From: an uncultured Rubritalea sp.
GTDB taxonomy: Bacteria; Verrucomicrobiota; Verrucomicrobiia; Verrucomicrobiales; Akkermansiaceae
Assembly: GCA_937923145.1 (NCBI GenBank)
Contig: CALAJT010000029.1
Location: 1-49,956 of the forward strand
Reading direction: 5' to 3'
DNA length: 49,956 bases
The position numbers and the translations under genes were made by a program. The notes below the pieces were generated by a model. The model did no database searches and was not told the origin of the DNA. It worked only from the letters and a program-made list of their open reading frames with translations. Shown piece after piece: positions 1 to 47,485 of this stretch. How positions within the stretch are numbered: position 1 is the first letter of the stretch; the number at the start of each line of letters is the position of its first letter.

Positions 1-69
1 CTTACCTATAATATGGATTGTTACGCCTTCCTAATGAGATAACAGGTAGAAACCCTGAAACCACAGCTA

Positions 70-209
70 AATCAGACTAAGATAGGAATCAACGCCCTCG
101 AAAAGGAGCTAGTTTGAAGCCCATCAAGCGAAAATGCGACAACTTGATGAAGGTGAAAAAATCCTAAAATCTTGATTCCACTAGTTTGATGAGTTTACAG
201 AAGTTCCCT
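70..209 (+). repeat. Left arm of 140-bp perfect terminal inverted repeat
   Basis: Positions 70-209 are the exact reverse complement of 49817-49956, the last 140 bases of the window. I compared them base by base and found no mismatch. The match stops at 209/210 on the inner side; on the outer side it is limited only by the end of the window, so the repeat may be longer. Inside the arm are a 7-bp inverted repeat (CATCAAG at 122-128 and CTTGATG, spaced by 14) and two direct copies of CTAGTTTGA. One frame (70-114) reads NQTKIGINALEKELV before a stop, faintly like a coiled-coil gene remnant. No transposase is seen. It could be a multicopy element at which an assembly stopped, or the border of an invertible segment. 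Confidence 0.95.
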
Positions 210-215: not shown

Positions 216-308
216 AATAAAACAAAAGTACACGAGAAATCAATAAGCTATCTATGTAGAATATGCTTGCACGCAATAGCTACAAATTATATCAACTAGT
301 TTAATATA

Positions 309-1034
309 ATGCTAAAAAACCTGTTACCACGACTATATTACAGCACTTATTTTAATAAGAGCTCGATTGGTCAATTATATGTAATCTCTGAAGACATCAA
401 TACTCATTTTTACTTCAATAATCATAAAGGCTTCTTATTTCCTGAAGGAAACGAAAATCTAACGATCAATCTTGATATTCATTCTAGTTCAAGGAAAAAG
501 GTTCTTTCTAAGAGCTTCACATTAGATACTCATGATTCCCTCTCCGTATCCATCAGTTCATTGCTCAAGGATAAATTAACTCTGAGCAAAGAAGAAATTT
601 TAGGAACTATAGTCTGTACTTCTTCTAAAACTACTCTTCAAAACCACTTTTACTCTTATTATAGAGATGATAGTACTGAATCTGTGGCGATGATTCATCC
701 TCAGTCCACTGTAGGAAGAAAAACTACTTATAAAAAATGGGTGTCAAATCAGATTATCCATACGAAAGGACTAGATAAAATAGTGCGGTATCAGATGAAT
801 CACAGTCGAAGCTCTGCTTCTTGCCAGTATTATTTACACTCTTTAGAAGATCAGTCTTTATTCGTAGAGGCAGTAACCAGAGTAAAACAATTAGGAGCCA
901 CTAGAATAGAATTTGATCTTAAAGATAGTCCGCCTCAACTCTGCCTTAGCTTAGATAAACTAATGTCTCCTAACGGCAAACCACTGATCATGCGTAGATA
1001 CAAAAACCAAAAGTTTACGATCAACCATGGCTAA
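309..1034 (+). CDS. Unknown protein heading the glycan island
   Basis: A 241-aa protein that I do not recognise. It has no signal peptide, no clear membrane segment and no known catalytic motif. The middle third contains an aromatic stretch (NHFYSYYRDD) and the C-terminal part is basic and ends MRRYKNQKFTINHG. Its stop overlaps the start of the next gene by 8 nt (ATGGCTAA), so the two are translationally coupled. The local pattern QNHFYSYYRDD...STES here and QDFYIEHYIEN...SIS in the next protein suggests the pair may share a fold. Position at the head of a pseudaminic acid island suggests a role in surface glycan synthesis or its acceptor, but this is context only. Start ATG at 309 is the first in frame; there is no Shine-Dalgarno box. 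Confidence 0.75.
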   Translation: MLKNLLPRLYYSTYFNKSSIGQLYVISEDINTHFYFNNHKGFLFPEGNENLTINLDIHSSSRKKVLSKSFTLDTHDSLSVSISSLLKDKLTLSKEEILGTIVCTSSKTTLQNHFYSYYRDDSTESVAMIHPQSTVGRKTTYKKWVSNQIIHTKGLDKIVRYQMNHSRSSASCQYYLHSLEDQSLFVEAVTRVKQLGATRIEFDLKDSPPQLCLSLDKLMSPNGKPLIMRRYKNQKFTINHG

Positions 1035-1926
1035 AACGATTTCCATCCAAGGTAAAAACATCATCCTTTTTTACTGCTCTAGCCTCAAGACTTTAGGATT
1101 AGAATCTAGAGTCAGTTTACCAAATAAAACGGGCAAGATTACTGACGCTTTTGTTCAAGTATTTACTACTTCTGGCAAGTTCGTAGATGAACTTCAACTT
1201 GATCCAGTAGCTGATAAATCCATTACTCCAGTTGAGCTGAACGATCTTTATAGCGGACTTCAGTTAGACTCTTCCCAAAATTACGTGTTTCTTTTCTCTC
1301 TCGTACCTGAAGGCTACTCTCCGAATAAATTGAGTGATATAGAGCTCGGTGAAATTTCTAGATTGAATAGCACCCAAGATTTCTACATTGAGCATTATAT
1401 AGAAAATAGTATTTCAGCGGGTGTGCTTTATAAGGCATCACCAGTCATGAATAATAAAAGTATCATTCCACAATTTTACTTTTTCATGCAAGCTCCTAAG
1501 ATTTACCTTTCCAAGCATCAGGACACGATATTCCAATTCTTCAATCCTAATATTTCAATAGAACTAGAAAATTCTACTCTCTATTACTTCATCCGAGAAA
1601 CTGACGGGACTATCTTGAGCAAAGGAGAACTCCAAGTTTCTAGCAATGGTATGTCTCTGCTCAGTATTAAAGACACTTTAAAGAAAAATAACATTTCATC
1701 ACTTCAAGGATTTCTCCATTTTGAAGCCTTCTCTGATGAAGCAATATTCATTACTCTAACAATGCAATATAACAAAACTTTGGAGACCTTGGATTTGGAG
1801 CACACCTTATCTCCTCACTATTATTTGCAGAAAAATAAAATGGATAAAAAGGTCACCCATCAGTTTTATAGTGACCTGTACAAAACTTATAATAACAACT
1901 CTGTTTCAACCCCCGTCCATAGCTAA
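1027..1926 (+). CDS. Unknown protein, possible distant relative of its upstream neighbour
   Basis: A 299-aa protein with no family I can name. The predicted composition is rich in beta-forming residues with repeated short strands, and there is no signal peptide or membrane segment. A segment around residues 115-135 (DFYIEHYIENSISAGVLY) resembles in pattern the NHFYSYYRDD region of the preceding protein. It overlaps the previous gene by 8 nt and is followed after 2 nt by the first KpsC/KpsS-like glycosyltransferase, so it is almost certainly in the same transcript. A role with those transferases is inferred from position only. Confidence 0.75.
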   Translation: MAKTISIQGKNIILFYCSSLKTLGLESRVSLPNKTGKITDAFVQVFTTSGKFVDELQLDPVADKSITPVELNDLYSGLQLDSSQNYVFLFSLVPEGYSPNKLSDIELGEISRLNSTQDFYIEHYIENSISAGVLYKASPVMNNKSIIPQFYFFMQAPKIYLSKHQDTIFQFFNPNISIELENSTLYYFIRETDGTILSKGELQVSSNGMSLLSIKDTLKKNNISSLQGFLHFEAFSDEAIFITLTMQYNKTLETLDLEHTLSPHYYLQKNKMDKKVTHQFYSDLYKTYNNNSVSTPVHS

Positions 1927-1928
1927 TC

Positions 1929-3305
1929 TTGAACAATACAAACTCACCATTAAGAATTCTCTTCTGCTGGTTTCACCAACCGCACCTGCAGCAAGCTGTC
2001 TCAGAGTTTATCGATGAAAGTTCGCCTGAATATGTTGGACTCATGGGACATACTAATTACCTAGGTGATAAATCTGATACTTTTTTGCACTCTAAGAGAG
2101 CTCGCAAGAACTGCCATTTCCCAGACCACGATCACAAGCATGTCCCATCTCGCCAGATCATCGAATCGATGCGTGATTCGGAAGCTGAGGTGCTGAAAAT
2201 GATGGATCGTATTTATAAAAGTCCATTCAAGCCGCGTCAGTATGAATTCCGTAAACGTCTCTACTATTCGCAACTCTGCATGGCATACGGATTTTTAAAG
2301 GAACATAATTTCAACCGGGTTATCTTCTCTAACATCCCGCACAACAGTTTCGATTTCATCTTATTCGGACTCTGTAAGGCTCTTAGTATAGAGACCTCAT
2401 TCCTCTATCAATTACAGGTCAAAGACTGCTTCCTCCATGCTTACACGCTTGAGGAACTCTATGGACAGCTTGCCCTGCCTCCGCAATACGATGAATCAGA
2501 TGAATGGGAACTACCAGATTTTCTAGAAGAAGAAATCCAAGAACGATTAGGAACTAAAGCGCCATTCTACATGAATGCGAATCGCTTCCCTCTTAAGGAT
2601 AAGCTCAAAGTATTACGCAAGAAAGCATTCAGAATCCAAACCTACACCTACCCGTTCTATACATTTTCTAGTTGGTTTGCTTACAAGCGTATCCCCAAAT
2701 ATACCCCTACTCCTGATAGTAAGTTCGTTTACTTTGCGCTACACATGCAGCCTGAGGCGACCACTTCTCCTATGGGAGGAGTTTTCGTGGATCAGTATTA
2801 TGTGATCCTGATGATTGCTAGAGCACTACCAGAGGGTGTAAAAGTAGTCGTCAAAGAACACCCTCACCAAGAGATGTGGCAGCGCACTCCAGACTTTTAT
2901 AATATCTTAAAGGCTGAGCCTAATGTGGAATTTGTCTCTCTGAAACAGAATAGTTTTGAGCTTATAAAACAATCCATCGCTGTCGCCACAATCACTGGCA
3001 CAGTAGGCTGGGAAGCGTTATTCTTGAAAAAACCCGTTATCCTATTCGGTCACATTTTCTACAAGCACCTACCTGGAGTCATCAATGTAAACGACACGGA
3101 ATCACTAGCGGATGCCATGACTCAAATCCAGAGTGGTGATTTTAAACTCTGCGAACTTTCGGACATTCGCAAGTTACTCCACTATACTAACGAAATAGCA
3201 TATCATGGAGCTGTCGATGATGACTACTTCGAAATCTCTCACCTCTCCGCTGAAGAAAATAAAATCTCAGTCAAGCAAGCTCTAACAGATTTCATCATTC
3301 ACTAA
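1929..3305 (+). CDS. KpsC/KpsS-like capsule-type glycosyltransferase, copy 1
   Basis: A 458-aa cytoplasmic protein of the Capsule_synth type (the family containing the KpsC and KpsS Kdo transferases). The C-terminal half has the family hallmarks: YFALHMQPEA, then VVKEHPHQ, then TITGTVGWEALFLKKPVILFG, which form the nucleotide-sugar side of a GT-B fold. The N-terminal half (GLMGHTNYLGDKSD, KMMDRIYKSP, YEFRKRLYY) is shared closely with the next gene. The only start near the previous stop is TTG at 1929; the next in-frame Met is about 35 residues in, too far inside the conserved region. Members of this family use CMP-Kdo, a sugar similar to CMP-pseudaminic acid, so transfer of pseudaminic acid is a reasonable inference in this cluster. 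Confidence 0.85.
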   Translation: MNNTNSPLRILFCWFHQPHLQQAVSEFIDESSPEYVGLMGHTNYLGDKSDTFLHSKRARKNCHFPDHDHKHVPSRQIIESMRDSEAEVLKMMDRIYKSPFKPRQYEFRKRLYYSQLCMAYGFLKEHNFNRVIFSNIPHNSFDFILFGLCKALSIETSFLYQLQVKDCFLHAYTLEELYGQLALPPQYDESDEWELPDFLEEEIQERLGTKAPFYMNANRFPLKDKLKVLRKKAFRIQTYTYPFYTFSSWFAYKRIPKYTPTPDSKFVYFALHMQPEATTSPMGGVFVDQYYVILMIARALPEGVKVVVKEHPHQEMWQRTPDFYNILKAEPNVEFVSLKQNSFELIKQSIAVATITGTVGWEALFLKKPVILFGHIFYKHLPGVINVNDTESLADAMTQIQSGDFKLCELSDIRKLLHYTNEIAYHGAVDDDYFEISHLSAEENKISVKQALTDFIIH

Positions 3306-3306
3306 T

Positions 3307-4677
3307 ATGGCTGCTAAAAAAATTAACAAAAAAATCTTATTCTGCGGATTCTGGCAAAGCCATCACAAGGATGCGCTGAAGCAGCATCTAGAAAAATTCA
3401 GCTATGATAAGATTGGCTTAGTTAGCCACGATAACTATCTAGAAAAGCACAACCCTGTCTTTATATCACAACGTCAAATCTATAAGCACGATACTTTCCT
3501 AGGTAATCCTGCCCCTGATCTTCCCTCCCGAGAAATCATCGAGAAAATGCAGCCGATAGAGACGACCTGTCTCAAGATGATGGATCGCAATCATAAAAGC
3601 CCCATCAAATATCGACGCTATGAATTCCGTAAACGCACTTATCTAGCTCAGCTTGCTAGTGCCTACTCGATTTTAAAGCATCACCAATTTAATCAGATTC
3701 TTTTCTCGATCACTCCTCATAATACGTTCGACTACATCATCCATCACCTTGCTCAGCACTTAGGAATCAAGTCTACTTTCTTTGCTCAGATTCAGGTTAA
3801 AGATTCTTTTTTCCATGCTGACGACATTGAGAATATCTACGGACAGATTAGCGACGCTGTAGACCACGACAGCACCGAATGCGAACTTCCTGAACATTTA
3901 GAAACTGAGCTTTCAGACAGACAAGGACTTACAAAGCCATTCTACATGAACTCTGCTGGACTCACTTGGAAGCAACGTGTCTATAGAAAGCAGAAGAAGA
4001 TCTTTAGAATTCACAGCTACATTCAGCCAATGTTCGCCTTGCCGAACTGGATCGCCTATCAGCGCATACCTAAGTTGACCGCTCCGCCGAAAAATAAGTA
4101 TATTTACTTTGCGCTCCATTTCCAGCCAGAGGCTACTACTTGCCCACTCGGAGGAATCTACGTAGATCAATATTTTGCGATCCTCATGCTTGCCCGCTCA
4201 TTGCCATCGGACATCGATGTCATCGTGAAAGAACATCCGCGTCAACACTTCTGGCAGAGGTTCCCTGAGTTCTATAAGGTGCTAGCTGCTGAGAAAAATG
4301 TAAAGTTTGCTCATCTTAAGACTGACTCGCTAGAACTGACTAACAACTCACTAGCCGTAGCCACTATCACTGGCACTGTAGGCTGGGAGGCTGTGTTTAA
4401 TAAAAAGCCTGTCTTCCTCTTCGGAACTATATTCTACGAACATCTCGCTGGCATTGTAAAAGTCACTGACCAAGAGTCAATCTCATCTTCGATTCAAGAT
4501 ATACTAAATGATAACTTCACAACTGCCACTGAACTAGAAATACGCCAATATCTGAAAGCTATCTATGACTCTGGTTTCACGGGTGTCATCGATGAAGAAT
4601 ACTTCAGAAACTCAGCATTTTCAAAGAAACACAGCACAGACACTATGGTATATGCCATAGAGAAGTTCACCACCTGA
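3307..4677 (+). CDS. KpsC/KpsS-like capsule-type glycosyltransferase, copy 2
   Basis: A 456-aa paralogue of the preceding gene, clearly a tandem duplication: the same blocks occur in order (SHDNYLEKHNP, KMMDRNHKSP, YEFRKRTYL, YFALHFQPEATT, VKEHPRQ, ITGTVGWEAVFNKKPVFLFG). The start ATG at 3307 follows the previous stop by 1 nt, which indicates coupled expression. Two copies with divergent central parts suggest two linkage or acceptor specificities rather than simple gene dosage. Family knowledge: soluble, membrane-associated GT-B enzymes using CMP-activated ulosonic acids. The actual donor and acceptor cannot be read from the sequence. Confidence 0.85.
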   Translation: MAAKKINKKILFCGFWQSHHKDALKQHLEKFSYDKIGLVSHDNYLEKHNPVFISQRQIYKHDTFLGNPAPDLPSREIIEKMQPIETTCLKMMDRNHKSPIKYRRYEFRKRTYLAQLASAYSILKHHQFNQILFSITPHNTFDYIIHHLAQHLGIKSTFFAQIQVKDSFFHADDIENIYGQISDAVDHDSTECELPEHLETELSDRQGLTKPFYMNSAGLTWKQRVYRKQKKIFRIHSYIQPMFALPNWIAYQRIPKLTAPPKNKYIYFALHFQPEATTCPLGGIYVDQYFAILMLARSLPSDIDVIVKEHPRQHFWQRFPEFYKVLAAEKNVKFAHLKTDSLELTNNSLAVATITGTVGWEAVFNKKPVFLFGTIFYEHLAGIVKVTDQESISSSIQDILNDNFTTATELEIRQYLKAIYDSGFTGVIDEEYFRNSAFSKKHSTDTMVYAIEKFTT

Positions 4678-4736
4678 TCTTTTTTACTAGTCAATTTTCA
4701 TATAAACTTCTAACACTAACATAACATCTCATTATC

Positions 4737-5888
4737 ATGATTTCCTACTGCACAAATTGCTTACTACCTGACACCAAACCCGACCTTAGTTTTAATGAAG
4801 AAGGAGTATGCAATGCCTGCACTAATTTTGCTAACCGTAAGGAGGTCAACTGGGATGAACGTCTCGTAGAGCTAGATGAAGTTCTAGAACGCTATAGGAA
4901 TAAAGATGGCTCATACTGGGACTGTGTAGTTCCTGTTAGTGGTGGAAAGGATTCCACATTCCAGGTCATCAAGATGTTAGAATTAGGAATGAACCCACTC
5001 TGCGTCACAGCCCACACTTGTGACTTAGCAGAGATCGGTAGAGCTAATATCGAGAACATCAAGGCTCTCGGAGTCGATCTGCTAGAGTTTTCGCCTAATC
5101 CAAATGTTAGAGCTAAACTCAATAACATCGGACTAAAGCAAGTTGGCGATATCGCATGGCCAGAGCACGTAGGTATTTTCACCATTCCTGTCCGTGTAGC
5201 TACTCAGTATAAAATCCCACTCATAGTATGGGGTGAAAATTCACAGAATGAATATGGCGGACCAGCAGCCAATGCGAACTCAAACTCTCTAGACCGTAGA
5301 TGGCTAGAAGAGTTCGGCGGTCTGCTAGGACTCCGCGTGAGTGATCTAGAAGGAGTAGATGATATCAAAAAATCTGACCTTATCCCATACGTTTACCCTA
5401 CTGATGAAGAGCTTAAAGAAGCTAAAGTCACAGGACTTTTCCTAGGTCACTACATCCCGTGGGATGGCTACTCAAATGCACTTCTCGCTCAGGCATACGG
5501 TTTTCAGACATTACCTCACACCGCTGAGGGATCTATCGTGAACTACGAGAATCTAGACAACCATCAGCATGGTATCCACGACTACTTTAAGTTCCTCAAA
5601 TTCGGATTTGCGAGAGCGACAGACATTGCATCACTCCACATTCGCAGAGGACGTATTACCCGTGCGCAAGGTCTCGATCTGGTGAAGCGTCATGATGGTA
5701 AGTTCCCCCTCAGCTATCTAGGTAAGCCACTCGATCAGATCCTAGAAAAGATCGGAATGACCGTAGAAGAATTCACCGCCATTTGCGATAAATTCACCAA
5801 CAAGAAAATCTTCCAGAAAGATGCTCGCGGTAACTTGACAAAGGATCACAAAGGTAATCTTTCAAAAATTAACGACGACAACGACTAA
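4737..5888 (+). CDS. pseA: N-acetyl sugar amidotransferase (PseA/WbpG type)
   Basis: A 383-aa enzyme of the PseA/WbpG family, which converts an N-acetyl group on a nucleotide-linked sugar into an acetamidino group with ammonia supplied by a HisH/HisF-like pair. Visible motifs are a zinc-type cysteine set (C5, C8, C25, C28) and the PP-loop ATP pyrophosphatase signature SGGKDS at 68-73, which activates the substrate by adenylation. The two ammonia-supplying subunits follow directly; the stop and the next start share one base (TAATG at 5886). In pathogens the same trio acts on pseudaminic, legionaminic or uronic sugars. Here the pseudaminic pathway downstream points to an amidino-pseudaminic acid. 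Which sugar is modified is inference. Confidence 0.88.
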   Translation: MISYCTNCLLPDTKPDLSFNEEGVCNACTNFANRKEVNWDERLVELDEVLERYRNKDGSYWDCVVPVSGGKDSTFQVIKMLELGMNPLCVTAHTCDLAEIGRANIENIKALGVDLLEFSPNPNVRAKLNNIGLKQVGDIAWPEHVGIFTIPVRVATQYKIPLIVWGENSQNEYGGPAANANSNSLDRRWLEEFGGLLGLRVSDLEGVDDIKKSDLIPYVYPTDEELKEAKVTGLFLGHYIPWDGYSNALLAQAYGFQTLPHTAEGSIVNYENLDNHQHGIHDYFKFLKFGFARATDIASLHIRRGRITRAQGLDLVKRHDGKFPLSYLGKPLDQILEKIGMTVEEFTAICDKFTNKKIFQKDARGNLTKDHKGNLSKINDDND

Positions 5889-6505
5889 TGAGTATCATGA
5901 TAATCGATTACGGAATGGGTAACCTCACTTCCGTCCAGAGAGCACTCGAAGAAGTCGGAGCTGCCTGCTTCATCTCTGATCTACCACGAGATATCAAAGA
6001 CGCAGGATCTATCGTTCTGCCTGGTGTGGGAGCATTTAAGGAAGGCATGAAGAATCTGAAATCATCAGGGATGGCGGATGTAATCGTTGAAGCTACTAAT
6101 GAAGGTGTCCCACTGTTAGGCATTTGTCTCGGGATGCAACTTCTCGCTACCAAGGGTTATGAAGGAGGTGAAACAGATGGTCTAAATCTCATTCCAGGAA
6201 CGATCCGTGAAATGCAGGCCCAAGCTGGTGAACGAATTCCACACATAGGCTGGAACGAAATCAATCACTGCCAAGATCACCTCATGTATGAAGGCATCAA
6301 AGATCTAACAGATTTCTATTTTGTACATAGTTACCACTTTGATAATGATGACAACCATGCCGTCACCACTACGCCTTACGCTGGAGGGTTCACCTCATCT
6401 GTAGCGCATAATAATATCTGGGGAACACAATTCCACCCTGAGAAAAGTTCTAAAGCTGGACTCAAGTTGTTAGAAAATTTCATTAATATTCCATTCAACG
6501 TATAA
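5888..6505 (+). CDS. hisH: HisH-like glutamine amidotransferase subunit
   Basis: A 205-aa class I glutamine amidotransferase. The catalytic triad is visible: Cys80 in GICLGMQ, and His183 and Glu185 in GTQFHPEKS. It releases ammonia from glutamine and passes it to its HisF-like partner. Length and motifs fit HisH, but no histidine biosynthesis genes are nearby. It lies between a PseA/WbpG-like amidotransferase and a HisF-like protein, the arrangement known from wbpG-hisH2-hisF2 O-antigen clusters. I therefore read it as the sugar-modification paralogue and not the histidine enzyme. Confidence 0.88.
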   Translation: MSIMIIDYGMGNLTSVQRALEEVGAACFISDLPRDIKDAGSIVLPGVGAFKEGMKNLKSSGMADVIVEATNEGVPLLGICLGMQLLATKGYEGGETDGLNLIPGTIREMQAQAGERIPHIGWNEINHCQDHLMYEGIKDLTDFYFVHSYHFDNDDNHAVTTTPYAGGFTSSVAHNNIWGTQFHPEKSSKAGLKLLENFINIPFNV

Positions 6506-6509
6506 AATC

Positions 6510-7274
6510 ATGCTGAAAACTCGTGTAATCCCTACCCTACTCTGGAAACGCCCAGGACTCGTCAAAGGAATCGGCTTCGACAGCTGGAGAAGAGTCGGTA
6601 CAGTGTTGCCTGCTATTAAAGTCTACAACATGCGAGATGTTGACGAGTTGATCCTCGTAGATATCAATGCTTACTCAGAAGGAGTAGAGCCAGATTACGA
6701 AGAAATCGCTGAGTTTACTCAGGAGAGTTTTGTTCCTATGACTGTCGGAGGTGGAGTTACGGATGTAGATCATTTCAAAAAACTACTTCGTGTAGGCGCT
6801 GATAAAGTAGCGCTGAATTCAGTCATCTATGACAAACCTGAACTCATCTCAGAAGCCGCTAATAACTTCGGTAAACAATGCGTAGTAGCTAGTATCGACT
6901 ACATCAAAACAAGCGATGGGAATTACCAATGCTGCAGTCACTCCGGCAGCCAGATCAAGGATCGTCACCCGGTAGAATGGGCAAAAGAACTTGAATCACG
7001 AGGAGCGGGAGAAATTTTGCTCACCTCTGTAGATAAAGATGGAACAATGGAGGGATATGACTACGATATTACCAAACAAGTCACGGAAGCTCTTAAAATA
7101 CCAGTAATCGCCTCGGGAGGTGCTGGTAACTATGAACATATGGCTAAAGTGGTCACTGACTCGGGAGCCGCTGCAGTAGCTGCTGCCAGTATTTTTCATT
7201 TTACAGAACAAACTCCGCTGAAAGCCAAAGAACACATGGCTACTCAGGGAATCCCCGTCAGACTCATCAAATAA
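6510..7274 (+). CDS. hisF: HisF-like subunit of the sugar amidotransferase
   Basis: A 254-aa TIM barrel of the HisF family that conducts ammonia from the HisH-like subunit. Genuine HisF uses two catalytic aspartates, Asp11 and Asp130. Here the residue at position 11 is Leu (IPTLLWKRPG replaces the usual CLDVKDG) while Asp130 is kept (VVASIDYIK). The phosphate-binding glycines remain (TVGGGV near 79, ASGGAG in the C-terminal half). Loss of one catalytic Asp argues that it no longer makes the imidazole product and instead only channels ammonia to the PseA-like enzyme. ATG at 6510 follows the HisH-like gene by 4 nt. Confidence 0.88.
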   Translation: MLKTRVIPTLLWKRPGLVKGIGFDSWRRVGTVLPAIKVYNMRDVDELILVDINAYSEGVEPDYEEIAEFTQESFVPMTVGGGVTDVDHFKKLLRVGADKVALNSVIYDKPELISEAANNFGKQCVVASIDYIKTSDGNYQCCSHSGSQIKDRHPVEWAKELESRGAGEILLTSVDKDGTMEGYDYDITKQVTEALKIPVIASGGAGNYEHMAKVVTDSGAAAVAAASIFHFTEQTPLKAKEHMATQGIPVRLIK

Positions 7275-7294
7275 TTACACTATTAAATAAATTC

Positions 7295-8293
7295 ATGCTT
7301 AACGGAAAATCAATACTCATCACAGGTGGCACAGGCTCGCTAGGAAAAGAACTTACTAAAACGATATTAGCTAAATGGCCAGATGTTGCCCGCTTAGTTA
7401 TCTTCTCACGCGATGAGCAAAAGCAGTTCGTCATGGCTCAAGAATACCCTGCCGACAAGTTCCCGCAAGTAAGATTCTTTATCGGAGACGTGCGTGACCT
7501 AGATCGTATGTACAGAGCATTCCACGGCATTGACGTAGTGATCCATGCAGCAGCTATGAAGCATGTTCACATCGCAGAATACAACCCTGACGAGTGTGTT
7601 AAGACTAATATCGACGGAGCGCAGAATGTCATCAAAGCGAGTCTTCACTGTGGAGTAAAGGACGTCGTCGCCCTCTCTACGGACAAAGCATGTGCACCTA
7701 TTAATCTTTACGGAGCTACTAAACTAGCTTCCGACAAGCTCTTCGTAGCAGCCAACAACATCAGAGGAACTCAAGATATTAAATTCTCAGTAGTGCGCTA
7801 CGGAAATGTCATGGGGTCTAATGGATCGGTCATACCTTTCTTCATGCAGAGAAAAGATTCTGGCGTTCTTCCTATCACGGATGAGAAGATGACTCGCTTT
7901 AATATCTCTTTAGCAGATGGAGTGAAAATGGTGCTTCATGCGATTGATCACGCTTGGGGTGGAGAAATATTCGTTCCTAAAATCCCATCTTACCGAATCA
8001 CAGAGCTAGCTAAGGCAGTCGGTCCAGACTGTGAGCATCCTATCATCGGCATCAGACCTGGGGAGAAAATTCATGAAGAGATGATCACCTCGTCAGATTC
8101 ATTCACTACCTACGATCTCGGAACCTACTACGCAATCATACCGCAAATACCGATGTGGGATCTGGAAGAGTTCAAGACTCACTTTAATGCTAAGCTGGTT
8201 CCCCGTGGATTTAATTACACTTCTGGCGACAACGAAGATTTCCTCTCAGTAAGCCAGCTTCAAGAGTTGATCACTACCCACGTTGGAAATTAA
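7295..8293 (+). CDS. pseB: UDP-GlcNAc 4,6-dehydratase (inverting), PseB
   Basis: A 332-aa extended short-chain dehydrogenase. It has the NAD(P) motif GGTGSLG at 11-17, the catalytic region STDKA with Asp130 and Lys131, and Tyr139-x3-Lys143 (YGATK). PseB removes water from UDP-GlcNAc and inverts C5, the first step of pseudaminic acid synthesis. Length and motif order match PseB/FlaA1 proteins that lack membrane segments. It starts the core pathway operon; the next gene, pseC, overlaps or nearly touches its 3-prime end. The pathway genes here run B, C, F, G-H, I. Confidence 0.93.
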   Translation: MLNGKSILITGGTGSLGKELTKTILAKWPDVARLVIFSRDEQKQFVMAQEYPADKFPQVRFFIGDVRDLDRMYRAFHGIDVVIHAAAMKHVHIAEYNPDECVKTNIDGAQNVIKASLHCGVKDVVALSTDKACAPINLYGATKLASDKLFVAANNIRGTQDIKFSVVRYGNVMGSNGSVIPFFMQRKDSGVLPITDEKMTRFNISLADGVKMVLHAIDHAWGGEIFVPKIPSYRITELAKAVGPDCEHPIIGIRPGEKIHEEMITSSDSFTTYDLGTYYAIIPQIPMWDLEEFKTHFNAKLVPRGFNYTSGDNEDFLSVSQLQELITTHVGN

Positions 8294-8306
8294 TCGATCT
8301 GTAATC

Positions 8307-9509
8307 ATGTCTCAAGAAAACTTCATTCCATACGGCAAACAAAATATCTCCGATGGCGATATAGAAGCCGTAGTGGCGGCTCTCAAGTCAGACTTCCTGA
8401 CCTGTGGTCCCCTCGTGGATGAGTTTGAAAATAAATTTGCTGAGTATGTAGGAGGTAAACATGCGATTGTCGTCTGTAATGCCACAGCAGCGCTCGACAT
8501 CACTATGAGAGCAGCTGGAATAGGCGCTAGTGACAGAGTCATCACTTCACCTAACACGTTTCTATCATCAGCAAATTGCGCTGCATTTGTAGGTGCTACT
8601 CCTGATTTCTGCGATATTGATCCTGCCACTTATAACATGTCTGCGGATGCTCTAGAGCAGATGTGGACTGATGATATCAAAGCAGTAGTGGCAGTCTCCT
8701 TCGCAGGTCAGTCGTGCGATATGCCTCGTATCCATAAAATCGCGAATAGCCGTGGAGCAGTAGTGATAGAAGATGCCAGCCACGGCACAGGTGGAGGCTT
8801 CGAACTTAATGGCAAAGCATACAAGCAAGGCGGACATCCATGGGCAGACATGACTGTATTTTCATTTCACCCAGTCAAAACTCTCACCACAGGTGAAGGA
8901 GGCATAGTCATCACCAATAGCGACGAATTTGCAAAAAAACTCAGACAACTCAGAACTCACGGAATGACCCGCGATACTGAAGATTTTCAAGGTCTTGGTT
9001 CAGATACACCAGCCCTAGCTGAGAAAGGTCCTTGGTATTATGAAATGACTACTTTAGGTCATAACTTCCGCATCACTGATATCCAATGTGCTCTCGGAAT
9101 CAGTCAGCTAGCACGTCTCGGAGACTTCACTCAGAGACGTAGAGATATAGTGGCTATGTATAACGCAGCATTCGCGGGGTTAGATTTCTTAGAAACACCC
9201 AAAACTCTCAGACCTGAAGATGCTAATCATGTTTCATGGCACCTCTACTCAGTGCAGATCGACTTTGAGTCACTAGGTAGATCGCGCACAGAAATCATGG
9301 CTGAGCTTAGGGAAAGCAACGTCGGCACACAGGTCTTGTACATACCTGTCTATCTACAGCCATTCTATAGAAACACCTATGGTTACGAGCCTGGCAAATG
9401 CCCTAACTCTGAAGCGTATTACGCCAAAGCACTCAGTCTCCCTCTCTACCCTAGTATGACTGACAATGATGTCCAGAGAGTCATTACAGCAGTAAAAAAT
9501 TTAAATTAA
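8307..9509 (+). CDS. pseC: PseC, PLP aminotransferase for the 4-amino sugar
   Basis: A 400-aa aminotransferase of the DegT/DnrJ/EryC1 family. The pyridoxal-phosphate lysine is Lys191 in SFHPVKTLTTGEGG and the cofactor-contacting acid is Asp156 in VIEDASHG. It adds the 4-amino group to the 4-keto sugar produced by PseB. I chose ATG at 8307 (MSQENFIPYGKQ), which matches the usual PseC N-terminus. A TTG at 8283 would add 8 residues and overlap pseB. It is followed after 11 nt by the SpsF-like gene. Confidence 0.93.
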   Translation: MSQENFIPYGKQNISDGDIEAVVAALKSDFLTCGPLVDEFENKFAEYVGGKHAIVVCNATAALDITMRAAGIGASDRVITSPNTFLSSANCAAFVGATPDFCDIDPATYNMSADALEQMWTDDIKAVVAVSFAGQSCDMPRIHKIANSRGAVVIEDASHGTGGGFELNGKAYKQGGHPWADMTVFSFHPVKTLTTGEGGIVITNSDEFAKKLRQLRTHGMTRDTEDFQGLGSDTPALAEKGPWYYEMTTLGHNFRITDIQCALGISQLARLGDFTQRRRDIVAMYNAAFAGLDFLETPKTLRPEDANHVSWHLYSVQIDFESLGRSRTEIMAELRESNVGTQVLYIPVYLQPFYRNTYGYEPGKCPNSEAYYAKALSLPLYPSMTDNDVQRVITAVKNLN

Positions 9510-9520
9510 AAAACATACTA

Positions 9521-10249
9521 ATGCCATCAGTAACCGCTATCATGCAAGCTAGACTAGGAAGCACACGTCTTCCAGGCAAGGTCCTCATGGAGGTGAATGG
9601 AATGACATTTCTAGAGCATTCTTTCTCTAGGTTACAGCTTGCGGAATCAGTCGATACGGCAGTTATCGCTACGACTACAGAGCCAGCAGATGTAGCTATC
9701 GCCAGTATTTGTGAAAAGCGCGGTTGGGCTCATAATCGTGGATCTGAATCAGACGTTCTAGATAGGTATTATCAAACGGCACTCCTTTACCCAGCTGACA
9801 TTATCGTACGAGTCACCTCAGATTGCCCTCTGTTAGATCCTGCTATTATCGATGAAGTAGTGAATAAAGTAAAAGCAGATTTCCCTAACATCTCCTACTC
9901 TGCCAACGTGCTTGTTCCTCGACATTTCCCTCGTGGATTGGATGTGGAGGCTTTTACATTTACTGCTCTAGAAAAGGCATGGAAGGAAGCTACTCAGGAA
10001 CCTGACCGTGAGCATGTGACACCATTTATCAATACCCAACCAGAGATTTTCCCCCAGCACGGAGTCTCTTACCCCGAGGATTTTTCACAGCACCGCTGGA
10101 CGCTTGATACGCAGGAAGACCACGATCTACTGTATAAAATATTAGATGCTAAACCTGAACCTACTGGTTGGTTAGAAATTCTAAAGCTAGTGGAGAGTAA
10201 CGAGGGTTGGTCTACTATCAATGCCGCCATTGAGCAGAAGAAAATCTGA
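9521..10249 (+). CDS. pseF: SpsF/PseF-type cytidylyltransferase
   Basis: A 242-aa protein of the SpsF family of nucleotidyltransferases. The N-terminal signature QARLGSTRLPGKVL (9-22) is the nucleotide-binding loop, and RVTSDCPLLDP contains the metal-binding Asp. In pseudaminic clusters this family takes the place of PseF and activates pseudaminic acid as its CMP sugar, the last cytoplasmic step. It ends 1 nt before the best start of the PseG-PseH fusion. The symbol is assigned from role and context; SpsF proteins are more distant from Campylobacter PseF than the other pathway enzymes are from their counterparts. Confidence 0.85.
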   Translation: MPSVTAIMQARLGSTRLPGKVLMEVNGMTFLEHSFSRLQLAESVDTAVIATTTEPADVAIASICEKRGWAHNRGSESDVLDRYYQTALLYPADIIVRVTSDCPLLDPAIIDEVVNKVKADFPNISYSANVLVPRHFPRGLDVEAFTFTALEKAWKEATQEPDREHVTPFINTQPEIFPQHGVSYPEDFSQHRWTLDTQEDHDLLYKILDAKPEPTGWLEILKLVESNEGWSTINAAIEQKKI

Positions 10250-10250
10250 T

Positions 10251-11747
10251 ATGCTGGGTCCCACATTAGCTATCCGTGCAGACGCCTCACATCAGGGTGG
10301 AACTGGACACATCATGCGCACACTTGCGATAGCGCAGGAATGGATTACTCGTGGTGGAACATGTGTTTATATTAGCGCTACTCTTCCAGATGCTATCCGA
10401 CTACGTGTGGAGTCCGAGAATTGTGAAGTCAAAATGCTCAGCAGTTCCCCCGCTTCGTCAGAAGATGCTAAAAAAACCTCTTCACTACTCATTGAACTAA
10501 AAGCTCGTTGGCTATTAATCGACGGCTACTCATTCACTCCAGAATACCAAGAACTGTTAGAATTACCCGCTAGAACAAAACTAGCGGTCATGTCCGATTT
10601 TGGCTGTAATGACTTTTATGAGCCAGACCTAGTCATTCATTCTAACATCGAAGCAACCGCAGACTACTCGAAGCTTGCCGACGACAATAAAGCTATTCTT
10701 CTAGCTGGCTCTGACTATGTATTACTAAGAAAAGAAATTATTGAAATACAAAGTAAACCAACTAACTCTAAAGTTAAAAACCTACTCATTACTATGGGAG
10801 GTTCAGACCCTCGTGAGGCTAGCTTCTTAGCCTGTAACCAAATTCTAAAGCATTCAGATCATCAGAACCTAAATATCAAAATAGTTCTCGGTGCGGCCTA
10901 CCCAGCTGATGGTAGTATGCACTCTGTAGAAGCTTCGAACATCGAGCTAGTCTACTCCCCTCCATCTATGGGCAAGCTTTATGAATGGGCTGACACCGCC
11001 ATTTGCTCTCCAAGTACAACAGCACTAGAACTGGCATACTGCGGACTCCCTACCGGTTTGATTATTACCGCTGACAATCAAGAAAAAATTCTGCAAGCTA
11101 TGCTAGAGAAAAAGATAGCCTTCCAACTTTCTGACGCCAGAAATGAACAGCCTGAATTACGACATCTCACAGATCTGTTAGACTCTGATCAACGAATTGA
11201 AATGTCTAACAGATCTGCTAAGCTAATCGATGGCAAAGGCACAAAACGTATTTGTGATGCGATGCGTTTTCCAGACATTCGCCTTAGACTAGGAACCATG
11301 GAAGATTCGAAAGATCTCCACCATTGGACTAATGACCCAGTCACTCGTGCCGCATCCTTTAGCTCTGATCCTATTCCTTGGGATAATCATATCGCATGGT
11401 TAGAAAAACAACTTAGTGCGCCTGATACGACTTTATTGATCATCGAGTCATGTAATGAAAAATTAGGAGTGGTGAGGTTTAATAAGAACGCGGAGACTGA
11501 TGGTGAATCTATCATTTCGATCAGTCTTGATTCTGAATGTCGTAGCCTAGGTCTAGCACCATTGATTCTAGCTATAGCCGCTGAGTATTTCTTTGCTCAA
11601 GAACCTCAGCAAGTGATCACTGCATGGATAAAACCAGAAAACATAGCTTCTATTAAGACCTTCATTCGTGCAAACTATAAAGATTATCCTTCACCTACGC
11701 AGCCTGATCAGGTCAGAATGCGTTTAACAAACACACCATCATCATGA
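10251..11747 (+). CDS. pseG: PseG-PseH fusion: UDP-sugar hydrolase plus N-acetyltransferase
   Basis: A 498-aa two-domain protein. Residues 1-340 are PseG, the hydrolase that removes UDP from the 2,4-diacetamido-trideoxy-altrose. It shows the GT-B-like loop RADASHQGGTGHIMR (9-23), TMGGSDPREA (181-190) and SPSTTALELAYCGLP (253-267). Residues 342-495 form a GNAT acetyltransferase domain (RLGTMEDSKDLHHWTNDP and following) matching PseH, which acetylates the 4-amino group just before the PseG step. Fusion would keep two successive steps together. ATG at 10251 gives the normal PseG N-terminus; an earlier in-frame start at 10221 would overlap the SpsF-like gene by 29 nt. The stop overlaps pseI by 4 nt (ATGA). 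Confidence 0.9.
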   Translation: MLGPTLAIRADASHQGGTGHIMRTLAIAQEWITRGGTCVYISATLPDAIRLRVESENCEVKMLSSSPASSEDAKKTSSLLIELKARWLLIDGYSFTPEYQELLELPARTKLAVMSDFGCNDFYEPDLVIHSNIEATADYSKLADDNKAILLAGSDYVLLRKEIIEIQSKPTNSKVKNLLITMGGSDPREASFLACNQILKHSDHQNLNIKIVLGAAYPADGSMHSVEASNIELVYSPPSMGKLYEWADTAICSPSTTALELAYCGLPTGLIITADNQEKILQAMLEKKIAFQLSDARNEQPELRHLTDLLDSDQRIEMSNRSAKLIDGKGTKRICDAMRFPDIRLRLGTMEDSKDLHHWTNDPVTRAASFSSDPIPWDNHIAWLEKQLSAPDTTLLIIESCNEKLGVVRFNKNAETDGESIISISLDSECRSLGLAPLILAIAAEYFFAQEPQQVITAWIKPENIASIKTFIRANYKDYPSPTQPDQVRMRLTNTPSS

Positions 11748-12793
11748 ATACATTTGAAATCGCTGGCAGAAAAATCGGTCCAGGTCATCCATGCTACATC
11801 ATAGCAGAACTATCCGCCAATCACGGGCAGAATATCGATAATGCTCTCGCATTAGTAAAAGTAGCAAAAGATGCTGGTGCTGATGCCATTAAGCTTCAGA
11901 CCTATCGAGCCGACACTATCACTATCGACTGCGACAACGAATACTTCACCATCAAAAAAGGAACGGCTTGGGAAGGTCAGATACTCTATGACTTATATGA
12001 AGAAGCGCATACCCCATGGGAATGGCATCAAGCTATTTTCGACGAGGCTGCTAAATACGGTCTGCAATGTTTCTCCTCACCATTCGATTATACTGCAGTA
12101 GATTTCCTAGAGAGTATTAATTCTCCAGCTTACAAGATAGCATCATTCGAAATCGTAGATCATGGTCTAATCGCCAAGTGCGCACAGACAGGAAAGCCAA
12201 TGATCATGTCTACTGGAATGGCGTCTAAAGAAGAAGTCGAGGACGCAGTAAAAGTAGCCAGAGACAATGGATGCACTCAGCTAGCTCTATTAAAATGCGT
12301 AAGCGCCTACCCTGCTCCAGCGGACGAAATGCACCTCGCTACTATCCAAGATCTCAGCCAGAGTTTTGACTGCCCAGCAGGACTTTCTGATCACACACTA
12401 GGCATCACTATCCCCGTAGCGGCAGCCAGTATAGGTGCTAGTATCATTGAAAAACACTTTACTCTCAGAAGATCTGACGGCGGACCAGACTCCCATTTCT
12501 CACTAGAACCACATGAATTTAACGAAATGGTTAAATCTGTTAGAGAAGCGCAGTCGGCAGTGAGCCAACCATCCTACGATCTTACTAAATCTCAAGTCGC
12601 CTCTCGCATGTTCAGACGCTCGCTATTTGTAGTCCAGGACATCAAGGCTGGCGAAAAACTTACCGCTGCGAATATCCGTTCAATTCGTCCTGGTCATGGT
12701 CTTGCTCCGAAAAATCTTGATGAAGTCCTCACTAAATTTGCTACTACAGATATTGCTAAAGGCACGCCTTTGGACTGGGATCTAATAAGCTAA
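11744..12793 (+). CDS. pseI: Pseudaminic acid synthase, PseI
   Basis: A 349-aa enzyme that condenses the 6-deoxy-altrose derivative with phosphoenolpyruvate to make pseudaminic acid. The NeuB-like barrel occupies about residues 1-280 (IIAELSANHGQN, ADAIKLQTY, STGMASKEEV, LLKCVSAYPAP, GLSDHTLG, EKHFTL). A C-terminal SAF/antifreeze-like domain follows from about 290 (RRSLFVVQDIKAGEKLT, IRPGHGLAP). Family choice among NeuB, LegI and PseI rests on the PseBCGH neighbours and on the close fit of the motifs. It overlaps the fusion gene by 4 nt. Confidence 0.93.
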   Translation: MNTFEIAGRKIGPGHPCYIIAELSANHGQNIDNALALVKVAKDAGADAIKLQTYRADTITIDCDNEYFTIKKGTAWEGQILYDLYEEAHTPWEWHQAIFDEAAKYGLQCFSSPFDYTAVDFLESINSPAYKIASFEIVDHGLIAKCAQTGKPMIMSTGMASKEEVEDAVKVARDNGCTQLALLKCVSAYPAPADEMHLATIQDLSQSFDCPAGLSDHTLGITIPVAAASIGASIIEKHFTLRRSDGGPDSHFSLEPHEFNEMVKSVREAQSAVSQPSYDLTKSQVASRMFRRSLFVVQDIKAGEKLTAANIRSIRPGHGLAPKNLDEVLTKFATTDIAKGTPLDWDLIS

Positions 12794-12812
12794 ATAATAG
12801 AATGTATTTGTA

Positions 12813-13442
12813 ATGAGCGATGAAACTGTCCAACTATCTGAAGAAAACTTCATTGCTTCTGGAGCGTTTTGTCGCTGCTATAGGCATCCACAGATTGCTG
12901 ATCAGTGTATTAAAATTACCACAGATGAAAAGAGAGCAAACAAGCGCTTGAAAGCGGACTTGTCCTATTATAAGAAACTATATCGTAGAAATGCAGATCT
13001 CTTCTATGTCGCAGATTACCTAGGTACTTGCACGACTAACTTGGGTAATGGCTATCTATTTGAATGCATAGTAGATAGTGATGGATCGGTTTCTAAAACG
13101 ATAGAATATTATTTAGAAAACAAAGTGATACAGCCTGAAATATTCCTGAAAGAGCTACATCATTTAGGCGTTCATCTACTCAACAACTGTATTCTTATTA
13201 GCGACATCCATGCTAAGAATGTTCTCATTCAGCTTACTGAAGATAATGCTCCCAAGCCAGTAGTCGTTGATGGCATCGGTGATTCTGTGGCTATTACAAT
13301 CCAAAATATATTTAAAGCTGAAGTTCGCTCTAAGATAACACGCCGATGGAATAGGTTTGCCAACAAACTCATCAATAGTTACCCAGAATACGAATCTTTT
13401 CTGCAAATGGTTTTTATAAGCAAAAACGATATCGTTCGATAA
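12813..13442 (+). CDS. YrbL-like protein with kinase-type fold
   Basis: A 209-aa protein resembling the PhoP-regulated YrbL family, a small protein-kinase-like fold. Visible features are the N-terminal GAFCRCYRHP loop, the segment CIKITTDEKRANKRLKADLSYYKKL, and a catalytic-loop-like LISDIHAKNVLIQ followed by VVVDGIGD, similar to the D-x-x-x-x-N and D-x-G/D motifs of kinases. In LPS clusters, proteins of this fold sometimes phosphorylate sugars; whether this one is active is unknown. It begins 19 nt after pseI and precedes a glycosyltransferase by 13 nt, so it belongs to the glycan operon. Confidence 0.75.
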   Translation: MSDETVQLSEENFIASGAFCRCYRHPQIADQCIKITTDEKRANKRLKADLSYYKKLYRRNADLFYVADYLGTCTTNLGNGYLFECIVDSDGSVSKTIEYYLENKVIQPEIFLKELHHLGVHLLNNCILISDIHAKNVLIQLTEDNAPKPVVVDGIGDSVAITIQNIFKAEVRSKITRRWNRFANKLINSYPEYESFLQMVFISKNDIVR

Positions 13443-13455
13443 AATATTTACTATC

Positions 13456-14403
13456 ATGCCTAAGCAAATCAACATCATCGCCAGAAGCAACGGAGTAGGA
13501 CTCGATAGCGATGTAACTCTCCTTACCCAAGCTATAGAGAAAGCTGGGCACAAGGTGACGTTTAGTCATTGTAGGTCACGTTCGTTACTTAAGAAATGGT
13601 TTAGTCGTAAGCCTCAATATGATGCTAATATTTTTCTAGAGCGTATTTTCCCAGTCTGGTTTGGAGCTGCTGAGAAAAATATCCTCATTCCGAATCAAGA
13701 ACGCTTCCCCCAGCGTCATGTGAAGCGACTCGAAAAAATAGATCATGTATTATGTAAATCTCAACATGCACTAGACATCTTTTCTGAACTGTCTGTCGAT
13801 ACAAAATACATAGGATTCACCTCTAAAGATATCCACCTTAACGATGAAATTCCTGACTACGGTATATTCTTTCATCTCGCTGGTCGTTCGACATTAAAAG
13901 GAACCGAAACAATACTAAAACTGTGGAAAAAGCACCCTGAGTGGCCTACTCTCACTATAGTTCAGCACAGAGACAATGCTCCAGAATCTGTACCGAATAA
14001 TGTGTGTTTAATTGCTGAGCATCTTCCCTATGCTGAACTCATTAAACTAGCGAATAAAAACGGCATACATCTATGTACATCTTTATCAGAAGGCTGGGGT
14101 CATTATATCGTCGAAGCGATGAGTAGTGCAGCTATCGTAGTAACTACTGATGCTCCACCTATGAATGAACTAATCTCCAGTGAACGCGGAGTTCTCGTCC
14201 CCTTTGATAAACAAGAACCGAGACATCTGGGAACTAATTTCTATGTGGATTCAGATTTGCTTGAAGAACAAATCACAGCAATCATAAATTCAGACCTAGA
14301 GTTACTCCAGACAAAAGCAATCCAAGCGCGTGCTTGGTTCGAGCAAAATCAAGTAAGCTTTAATGCCAGAGTCGGCACAGTATTTTCTAAAATACTGTGC
14401 TAA
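13456..14403 (+). CDS. Glycosyltransferase, GT4-like
   Basis: A 315-aa GT-B glycosyltransferase. The C-terminal half contains the donor-binding motif LSEGWGHYIVEAMSSAAIVVTTDAPPMNE, which is the E-x7-E pattern of the GT4 group, with HLAGRSTLKGTETILKLW before it. The N-terminal domain is short. It follows the YrbL-like gene directly and is the last + strand gene of this transcript. Its stop overlaps, over 14400-14403, the stop of a convergent glycosyltransferase gene. Donor and acceptor cannot be told. Confidence 0.82.
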   Translation: MPKQINIIARSNGVGLDSDVTLLTQAIEKAGHKVTFSHCRSRSLLKKWFSRKPQYDANIFLERIFPVWFGAAEKNILIPNQERFPQRHVKRLEKIDHVLCKSQHALDIFSELSVDTKYIGFTSKDIHLNDEIPDYGIFFHLAGRSTLKGTETILKLWKKHPEWPTLTIVQHRDNAPESVPNNVCLIAEHLPYAELIKLANKNGIHLCTSLSEGWGHYIVEAMSSAAIVVTTDAPPMNELISSERGVLVPFDKQEPRHLGTNFYVDSDLLEEQITAIINSDLELLQTKAIQARAWFEQNQVSFNARVGTVFSKILC

Positions 14404-42778: not shown

Positions 42779-43414
42779 TTATCTCTCACGACGCGCAAGG
42801 AGGCCGAGTGCCCCAAGCCCAAGAAGGGCTCCACTTGATGGCTCAGGAACAGCCGTCACAGAGAAACTATCAAAAACAGCAACATTGTTATTATTTCTAG
42901 ATTTGTCGGCTATTTCTAGACGAAGATTATTTCCTGTCCCTGTAAACATTTGAGACACAGCGCCCATAGTGTCACTAGTAGGCAGAGTATATGATGCTGA
43001 ATAAATTGATGTATTGGTTACTGTATCAATAATGGAAACGGTAATAGGAGCTGATAATGGCCCAAAGGATCTGGTCCAATAATCGTAGTTTAATCGATAC
43101 CCTGTTGCCGCAACACTTATAAAATCTTGATGCATAGTCACAGGTGAACCTTCTCCGTCAGTTTGCATAGCCCAGTCACCTGTTCCATTTGGCATAACCC
43201 ATGCTCCACCAGCATTGCTTCCCAGGTAGGTAGTTCTACCAGATGTCACAGTCCATCCTAAAGGACTAGCTACGACTCCATATTGATTAGGAGTAGGAGA
43301 GGTATTTACATAGCCAGCATTGTTTTCAAATCCACCATTAGTGAGGAGGTTCTGAGCACTAGTTAACCCTGTAAAAGCGGTAACCGAAACGAGAGTAATA
43401 ATTGTCTTTTTCAT
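42779..43414 (-). CDS. PEP-CTERM secreted protein 1
   Basis: A 211-aa exported protein. Signal peptide MKKTIITLVSVTAFTGLTSA (residues 1-20), then a beta-rich domain beginning NLLTNGGFENN, like carbohydrate-binding or DUF642-type modules, and the tail VPEPSS, hydrophobic segment, RRER. The PEP-CTERM tail directs cleavage and surface attachment by an exosortase. The leader lacks the long conserved module, having only a C-run 20-24 nt before ATG; it lies 50 nt behind the next gene upstream, so both are probably on one transcript. Confidence 0.88.
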   Translation of the reverse strand: MKKTIITLVSVTAFTGLTSAQNLLTNGGFENNAGYVNTSPTPNQYGVVASPLGWTVTSGRTTYLGSNAGGAWVMPNGTGDWAMQTDGEGSPVTMHQDFISVAATGYRLNYDYWTRSFGPLSAPITVSIIDTVTNTSIYSASYTLPTSDTMGAVSQMFTGTGNNLRLEIADKSRNNNNVAVFDSFSVTAVPEPSSGALLGLGALGLLARRER

Positions 43415-43464
43415 TCTATTGTTTTATTAGTTAGGGGGTGATAAAGGTTAATTCTATGTTGCGA

Positions 43465-44028
43465 CTATCTTTTACGGCGAGCAAGAAGCCCTAAAGCTCC
43501 GAGTCCAAGAAGAGCTGTGCTAGATGGCTCTGGAACAGTATTAAAGTTAGCTTCTCTGATTTGCTGGAAGCCACCATGACCACCTGTTGCTGAAGTAACC
43601 TCTAGGACTACTGTGTCAACTGCTGTATAGGTAGAAAAGCGGTAAGACTCCATGCTAGTAGCAGCCAATGTTGCTCCTAAATGAGTTGACCCAGGTGTCA
43701 AATCTGCAGAAACAAGTGACTCTGTTCCTAAATTTGTTATCCCAGAGAAAAAAGTAAGAGTAAAACTCTCTATCCCTTGCTTATTAGCTGGAGTCCTAAC
43801 ATCGTCCCAGAGATTGAACTGGTAGAGATCTACTGCTGAATTGAAGCCAAAAGTGATAGATCCTGTTTGCTCAGGGTTCTGCGTCCAACCTACATTGTAA
43901 TTATTATCAATGATCGCTGATATAGAACCTCCAGCCATTGCTGTTGATACACTATCAGCAGTAACTTGAGCATTAACTGACACAGTCAGCGTGGCTATAG
44001 AAGTGAGGGTGAAAATTGTGTTTTTCAT
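43465..44028 (-). CDS. PEP-CTERM secreted protein 2
   Basis: A 187-aa exported protein. Signal peptide MKNTIFTLTSIATLTVSVNAQ (about 1-20), a domain with a discoidin-like look (IDNNYNVGWTQNPEQTGSITFGFNSAVDLYQFNLWDD) and the tail VPEPSS...RRKR. It has the full conserved leader upstream (44035-44292) and no terminator of its own, so it reads into PEP-CTERM gene 1. Confidence 0.88.
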   Translation of the reverse strand: MKNTIFTLTSIATLTVSVNAQVTADSVSTAMAGGSISAIIDNNYNVGWTQNPEQTGSITFGFNSAVDLYQFNLWDDVRTPANKQGIESFTLTFFSGITNLGTESLVSADLTPGSTHLGATLAATSMESYRFSTYTAVDTVVLEVTSATGGHGGFQQIREANFNTVPEPSSTALLGLGALGLLARRKR

Positions 44029-44034
44029 AGTCTT

Positions 44035-44292
44035 ATTAATTGGGGGGTAGTTGCAGAGATTAGGCTCTCCGCCTGCGCCATGACGCCATAATATTTAATG
44101 AATAGATTAAATTCTATAGTAAATCTTATAGCAGCTTATATTTCTATTTGGGGGAATAAACTAAGAGATCATCATCGACCTTTCAAGGCTTCCTGAAGCC
44201 TGACCGTCAGACCATTTCCTCTTAACTTCAAATACTGTAACTAATTTAATTAATATTTCAAGATAATATACATATACGTGCCATTTTATTTA
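44035..44292 (-). repeat. Conserved PEP-CTERM leader, copy A
   Basis: About 240 nt upstream of PEP-CTERM gene 2, similar along the whole length to copies B (45076) and C (48064). Shared blocks, in + strand text: TAGGCTCTCC, a GCAGCTTATA block, GAATAAACTAAG, CATCGACC and TAACTAATTT. A run of six C (- strand) sits 14-19 nt before ATG. The hairpin pairing here is weak (GGC with GCC around 44063-44079). With the terminator at 44335 it fills the gap to the next gene. Confidence 0.85.
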
Positions 44293-44334
44293 GCCCCCTT
44301 CTACGTCCTCTTGTCTTCTTTAAGATTGAATAAC

Positions 44335-44370
44335 AAAAAGAACCCGCTCTGGACAAACCAAAGCGGGTAG
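44335..44370 (-). terminator. PEP-CTERM cassette terminator, copy 2
   Basis: Read on the - strand: ACCCGCTTTGG, loop TTTGT, CCAGAGCGGGT, then TCTTTTTG. It sits 26 nt after the stop of PEP-CTERM gene 3 and has the same core as copy 1. Confidence 0.9.
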
Positions 44371-44395
44371 ATAAAGCCTAAACTGTAAGTGCAAT

Positions 44396-45070
44396 TTACC
44401 TCTTACGACGAGCTAGAAGACCTAGAGATCCTAACCCAAGAAGAGCCGTGCTTGATGGCTCTGGGACAACTGATATAGCAACATTTAAGTTATCGTAACC
44501 AGCCGTCTGCGATACTCTCACATCTACTCCTGAAACATTCCTTGTACTATTTGCAGTAAATATACCAAACTGAATGACTCCACCATCAGATGTGAGCCCT
44601 GTCTGATGATCAGTTCCACTGATTGTATCCCAACTAAGCTGTGACGCTGAATCATAAAAAGCCAGTCGAGTTACTCCACCTTGTCTAGCATATACGCCTG
44701 TGCCTTGGTTACCTGGATCATTAACAGTATCGATACTTGCTGTAAACTTAAGCACTGTGCCAGCAGACAGACCCGCGAGAGATGGATCATATGTCCAGCC
44801 TGTTCTATCGTAATAGTTACCCACAGAAGAACCTCCACCAGAAGCAGCAACCCATCCTTGATTAATCTTCAAGTAAGATCCAGTGTTACCGCCTGAAGCA
44901 ATAAAACTAGTTGATTGAGTAGTGCTACCTGCAAGAGCTCCACTAGTGCTATTAACATTGGTATAATTAGCTAACACCATCGCGGTATCCAAATTTGAAT
45001 ATAGAGTCTGTGCATTAGCCGAAACAGATAGAGTAGTAATCGTTACTAAAGTAAGTGTAATATTTTTCAT
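44396..45070 (-). CDS. PEP-CTERM secreted protein 3
   Basis: A 224-aa exported protein. Signal peptide MKNITLTLVTITTLSVSANA, a beta-rich domain with Ser, Thr and Gly-rich loops (SGALAGSTTQSTSFIASGG), and the tail VPEPSS...RRKR. An in-frame start at 45130 would add 20 basic residues before the signal peptide and lies in the conserved leader, so I chose ATG at 45070. Leader copy B is upstream and terminator copy 2 downstream: a complete cassette. Confidence 0.88.
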   Translation of the reverse strand: MKNITLTLVTITTLSVSANAQTLYSNLDTAMVLANYTNVNSTSGALAGSTTQSTSFIASGGNTGSYLKINQGWVAASGGGSSVGNYYDRTGWTYDPSLAGLSAGTVLKFTASIDTVNDPGNQGTGVYARQGGVTRLAFYDSASQLSWDTISGTDHQTGLTSDGGVIQFGIFTANSTRNVSGVDVRVSQTAGYDNLNVAISVVPEPSSTALLGLGSLGLLARRKR

Positions 45071-45075
45071 AGTAT

Positions 45076-47394: not shown

Positions 47395-47432
47395 CAAAAA
47401 AAGAACCCATTCTAGAAAACCAGAACGGGTTA
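47395..47432 (-). terminator. PEP-CTERM cassette terminator, copy 3
   Basis: Read on the - strand: AACCCGTTCTGG, loop TTTT, CTAGAATGGGTT, then CTTTTTT. It has the same layout as copies 1 and 2 with a changed stem sequence that still pairs. It lies 54 nt after the stop of PEP-CTERM gene 4. Confidence 0.87.
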
Positions 47433-47485
47433 GTAATTTTAGGCAGATAAAAGGCTGAGAAACTTTTCCCTTTACGCTTTTAGAG

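Follow-up and report, generated by a model that had tools for sequence, protein, structure and literature searches.

Two insertion sequence copies account for the inverted repeat

The DNA under study (the window) is a whole contig, C29, of 49,956 bases in a draft genome of 53 contigs and 2,696,574 bases. We identified the inverted repeat at its borders as, almost certainly, the shared right end of two independently transposed copies of one IS5-family insertion sequence (IS) that face each other in opposed orientation about 50 kb apart. Positions 70-209 and 49817-49956 are exact reverse complements of each other (140/140 bases), which bears out the perfect repeat described in a sequence-only reading of this DNA, and the pair is the only inverted exact match of at least 20 bp within the window. 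Its length precludes chance as the source of the identity. The repeat is the right end of an ordinary multicopy IS5-family element. The features at the two borders are:

1-208, plus strand: right (3') end of the IS5-family IS, ending in ...CAGAAGTTCCC
1-42, plus strand: end of the transposase gene, last 13 codons and stop (read by eye)
43-208, plus strand: non-coding tail of the IS with the right terminal repeat
209-212, no strand: 4-bp target duplication, TTAT, also present next to the left end of the IS on contig C47
49103-49813, minus strand: PEP-CTERM protein gene, its ATG directly after the target duplication
49814-49817, no strand: 4-bp target duplication, TACT as read on the minus strand, also present next to the left end of the IS on contig C45
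49818-49956, minus strand: second copy of the IS right end, in opposite orientation, cut by the contig end

The IS accounts for 139 of the 140 repeated bases. The remaining one (T at 209, partner 49817) is the first base of each target duplication and is shared by coincidence, TTAT and TACT both starting with T. What limits the repeat to 140 bp is simply the contig end reached by its right copy. On the left, the element runs on to base 1, and the 69 bases at the start of the window also precede the copy on contig C7 and, at 99% identity, the copy on C10.

Copy number and position in the draft genome

A search of the 53 contigs with the 140 bp recovered 11 right ends, nine of them identical to the query at 137-140 of 140 positions and two at 114. 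All of them run off a contig end that is no more than about 200 bases away. Ten left ends (eight detected first and two later) are also located at contig ends, and an end of this IS thus occupies 21 of the 106 contig ends in the assembly. The sequences flanking the IS differ from copy to copy, as in a multicopy element dispersed at unrelated sites. Contigs extend 138-332 bp into the element (farthest on C10, 332 bp from the flank) and no copy is read from end to end in the draft. The middle of the IS was not found in the 53 contigs, nor did the ends of the contigs carrying left ends match PF01609; we infer that the draft omits the middle as a collapsed repeat. With about a dozen similar copies in the genome, nine of the eleven right ends being nearly identical, the assembly broke inside each copy and, as a result, the window starts and ends within the element. 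Draft assemblies generally break at repeats and leave IS copies at contig ends, and we saw no difference between this pattern and the one found here. A multicopy element at which the assembly stopped was one of two origins proposed from the sequence, together with a genome search for further copies, and the 11 copies at contig ends show that this proposal was right. Across 12 genomes of the genus, the window's own included, the 140 bp matched only the latter and one other (G009; four matches, 71-79% identity).

The coding sequence directly upstream of the repeat is the C-terminus of a transposase. In the copy on C10, this region encodes the C-terminus of a DDE transposase (PF01609, DDE_Tnp_1; 24.1 bits, cut-off 23). 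A full-length relative from Rubritalea profundi (L072) is 71% identical to the C10 remnant over 52 residues and matches the NCBIfam model of IS5-family transposases, NF033581, with 242 bits (cut-off 140). The IS5 assignment therefore combines PF01609 on the element's own C-terminal remnant with NF033581 on this relative, the catalytic middle of the transposase being absent from the assembly. Relatives of the C-terminal 54 residues occurred at 28 loci in named genomes; going by record title, 23 of them are in Verrucomicrobia and ten of these in Rubritalea, the closest included. To judge from these nearest transposase relatives, the draft genome is related to Rubritalea.

The termini of the element are consistent with this assignment. 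The ten left ends read GGGCACTTCTGGAAACC (in shorter form, GGGCACTTCTGG...) and are followed by a short leader and then by what looks, on visual inspection, like the beginning of the transposase frame. The 11 right ends finish in CAGAAGTTCCC or CAGAAATCCCC. Between the left end and the main right end we counted, by eye, 14 complementary positions among the outer 17. We checked six relatives for both ends (L072, L073, L075, L077, L079 and L084) and found clear terminal repeats in L079 (16/16) and in L084 and L077 (both 15/16), in elements of 1253-1309 bp. The 1253-bp element at L084 is complete and flanked by TCCT on both sides, while the 4-bp flanks at L079 and L077 did not match despite the matching terminal repeats; for L072, L073 and L075 our script found no convincing pair of ends. 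The IS thus resembles the IS5 family (NF033581, transpos_IS5_4; DDE_Tnp_1) in its DDE_Tnp_1 C-terminus, short terminal inverted repeats, 4-bp and mostly AT-rich target duplications and, in its relatives, lengths of 1253-1309 bp, and we saw no difference from it.

A 129-bp MITE-like element that resembles the IS ends was also noted on contig C36 (positions 1533-1661, within L024 and L116). Its terminal repeats are GGGAACTTCTG...CAGAAGTTCCC, and it is flanked by TTAT on either side. The element had 28 matches in genome G010 and two in G003; the search pattern covering both ends had no hit at the five G010 loci that were examined.

Matching flanks point to two simple insertions

IS5-family transposases act at the terminal repeats of the element, and the target is duplicated upon insertion. 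By analogy with the family, the transposase of this IS would act at GGGCACTTCTGG... on the left and ...CAGAAGTTCCC on the right and would insert the element into 4-bp targets that are mostly AT-rich and would be duplicated in the process. To compare the flanks, we defined the element as GGG...CCC. For nine of the ten left ends, the adjacent 4 bp are also present next to a right end, as target-site duplications would predict. By comparison, 24 shifted registers (1-24) gave 0-2 flank matches, only 1 of 20,000 composition-matched random draws reached nine, and draws of random 4-mers from the window yielded at most four. We settled on the register and length of the duplication once the flanks of the first eight left ends had been seen, before either flank of the window had a partner; the two left ends found later carried exactly the missing ones, TTAT at C47:1 and TACT at C45:1.

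Each of these left ends is the sole partner of its window border. As a practical gain, the 4-bp pairing proposes C47-C29-C45 as contig neighbors, in addition to C30-C7, C34-C39, C24-C2 and C1-C27. TATA is common to three left and three right ends, whose pairings are indistinguishable, and no partner was found for the left end on C11 (ATGA) or the right ends on C12 (TCCA) and C28 (ATTA). Because the two borders of the window pair uniquely with different contigs, they are best read as independent insertions, and the flank pairing indicates that both were probably simple ones.

Is the 50-kb segment invertible?

The opposed IS copies could also serve as substrates for homologous (RecA-type) recombination, which would invert the 50-kb segment in part of the population. 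Homologous recombination between inverted IS copies is known to occur in general, and the border copies are inverted and identical over the 140 bp. Yet we found no sign that inversion happens here: the flank pairing gives one consistent ancestral order, and the other IS copies in the genome are available as similar partners. An inversion through the IS would leave the half-junctions unchanged, so the pairing speaks for the ancestral order only. On this evidence we consider inversion by such recombination unlikely. Even less probable, in our estimate, is that IS recombination turns around the segment, with its sugar-synthesis island and its series of PEP-CTERM genes, in some members of the population; such a flip would alter the DNA that precedes the island and the last PEP-CTERM gene.

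Phase variation often involves invertible segments flanked by inverted repeats, and the window likewise has an inverted repeat at both borders. Unlike phase-variable segments, however, its borders are formed by a multicopy IS with separate 4-bp flank pairs, no recombinase was found among the 47 reading frames scanned, and nothing seen points to two orientations. The recombinase search covered 47 of the 53 open reading frames of at least 90 amino acids in the window (Pfam, E <= 0.001) and returned none; the six unscanned frames all overlap other ones. The integrase-arm-like protein noted earlier inside the window was not recovered among the 47 frames at this threshold, and the integron integrase that we did find lies outside, on C45. 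An IS end is not a known site of integron-type integrases. Furthermore, contigs C39, C45 and C47 are also bounded by two opposed ends of this IS and the inverted arrangement of the window is, therefore, not special. The second origin proposed in the sequence-only reading, borders of an invertible 50-kb segment, thus gained no positive support from the flank partners, the reading frames or the comparison with these three contigs. Most likely, the inverted repeat is not a special genetic switch. Tracing it to an IS explains the repeat and removes what was likely a false lead, that of a 50-kb invertible switch, though the finding itself carries little biological weight.

Two independent insertions also explain the borders far better than a composite transposon, in which the 50-kb segment would have moved as a unit between its two inverted IS copies. 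The IS copies on both sides, with their left ends facing outward, have the layout of such an element. A composite transposon would, however, be expected to have identical outer flanks, and given the C47 and C45 pairings these are TTAT and AGTA when read on the same strand, a difference on which we rejected this explanation. Each IS has, in addition, its own matching flank pair; a sequence resembling the leader of the right-most gene lies on C45, as if the site had been contiguous before the insertion; and genome G006 has part of the island without an IS at the left junction. We regard a composite origin as highly improbable.

Equally improbable is that the 140 bp are a structured non-coding RNA or the site of a site-specific recombinase: the plus strand folds somewhat better than its shuffles (-30.3 versus -22.5 on average, z -2.4), and nine tail sequences, from the copies and G009, are conserved at 88% mean column identity, but the other strand folds no better than shuffles (z -0.03), none of the 23 predicted pairs has a two-sided compensatory change and five are broken in at least one of the nine sequences, and the 140 bp directly follow the transposase gene. 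Folding of one strand only and the lack of compensatory change leave a structured RNA unsupported. There were no Rfam matches in the window and no tRNA was found.

The left junction and the glycan island

The link between C47 and the left junction consists of the 4-bp match only. G006 carries the same island without an IS at the junction (window positions 257-12735 at 79% DNA identity, with further pieces to 16876). Upstream of the island, this genome has a different gene, which we read as acyltransferase-like and whose only match in the window's own genome is on contig C18, at 57% identity. Over the 40 kb of the G006 island contig that were compared, nothing matched C47. Because the G006 neighbor is not on C47 and C47 is unmatched in these 40 kb, synteny neither supports nor contradicts the link. 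A squalene/phytoene synthase gene on C47 has matches in all 12 genomes of the genus, the window's own included.

The glycan island itself (1929-14403) encodes a NeuB-type synthase, a cytidylyltransferase, an aminotransferase, a glutamine amidotransferase, a His_biosynth-family protein and capsule-type proteins. One of the latter (1929-3305) was found in only two of the 12 genus genomes, G000 and G006, which suggests that it is patchily distributed in the genus.

The right junction and the PEP-CTERM genes

We compared the ten left-end flanks with the leaders of five neighboring PEP-CTERM genes. The flank of the IS left end on C45 gave the highest local scores for three of these leaders (15, 13 and 12). 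The other flanks reached at most 9 against any leader, and one of the three leaders matched by C45 lies on C45 itself. With scores of 9 and 7, the C45 flank did not outperform other flanks on the remaining two leaders. A further PEP-CTERM gene, read in the same direction, follows on C45. The leader-like flank supports the pairing of the right border with C45 independently of the 4-bp match. It also suggests that the IS separates the PEP-CTERM gene at 49103-49813 from a putative leader on C45, and the insertion may have disconnected this gene from its native promoter region. A promoter search at the right junction gave one 9-of-12 match (mean of 0.4 in shuffles), which we took as chance.

Next to its PEP-CTERM gene, C45 encodes a tyrosine recombinase of the integron-integrase family (L097:1755-2846, minus strand; TIGR02249, 381 bits, cut-off 265); across the IS lies the row of same-direction PEP-CTERM genes. 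The recombinase has matches in all 12 genus genomes, the window's own included; many of the weaker matches are probably ordinary Xer-type recombinases. Because C45 carries this gene, we considered whether the right arm of the window contains an array of integron cassettes. A scan with a crude home-made pattern for attC-like sites returned one candidate, listed once per strand, just after a PEP-CTERM gene (48966-49098; ATCTAAC ... GTTAGGT, 133 bp). On C45, the first 8 kb yielded no candidate on the strand of the array. As the paralogous stretch after the PEP-CTERM gene on C45 lacks the second core site (by eye), the candidate is probably a chance match. We found no literature that treats PEP-CTERM proteins, integrons and Verrucomicrobia together.

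The PEP-CTERM row of the window comprises five genes in the same direction (42779-49813, minus strand), at least three of them with similar leaders, as in a locally expanded family. Several of the five are followed by a G+C-rich, hairpin-like sequence that was recognized by eye.
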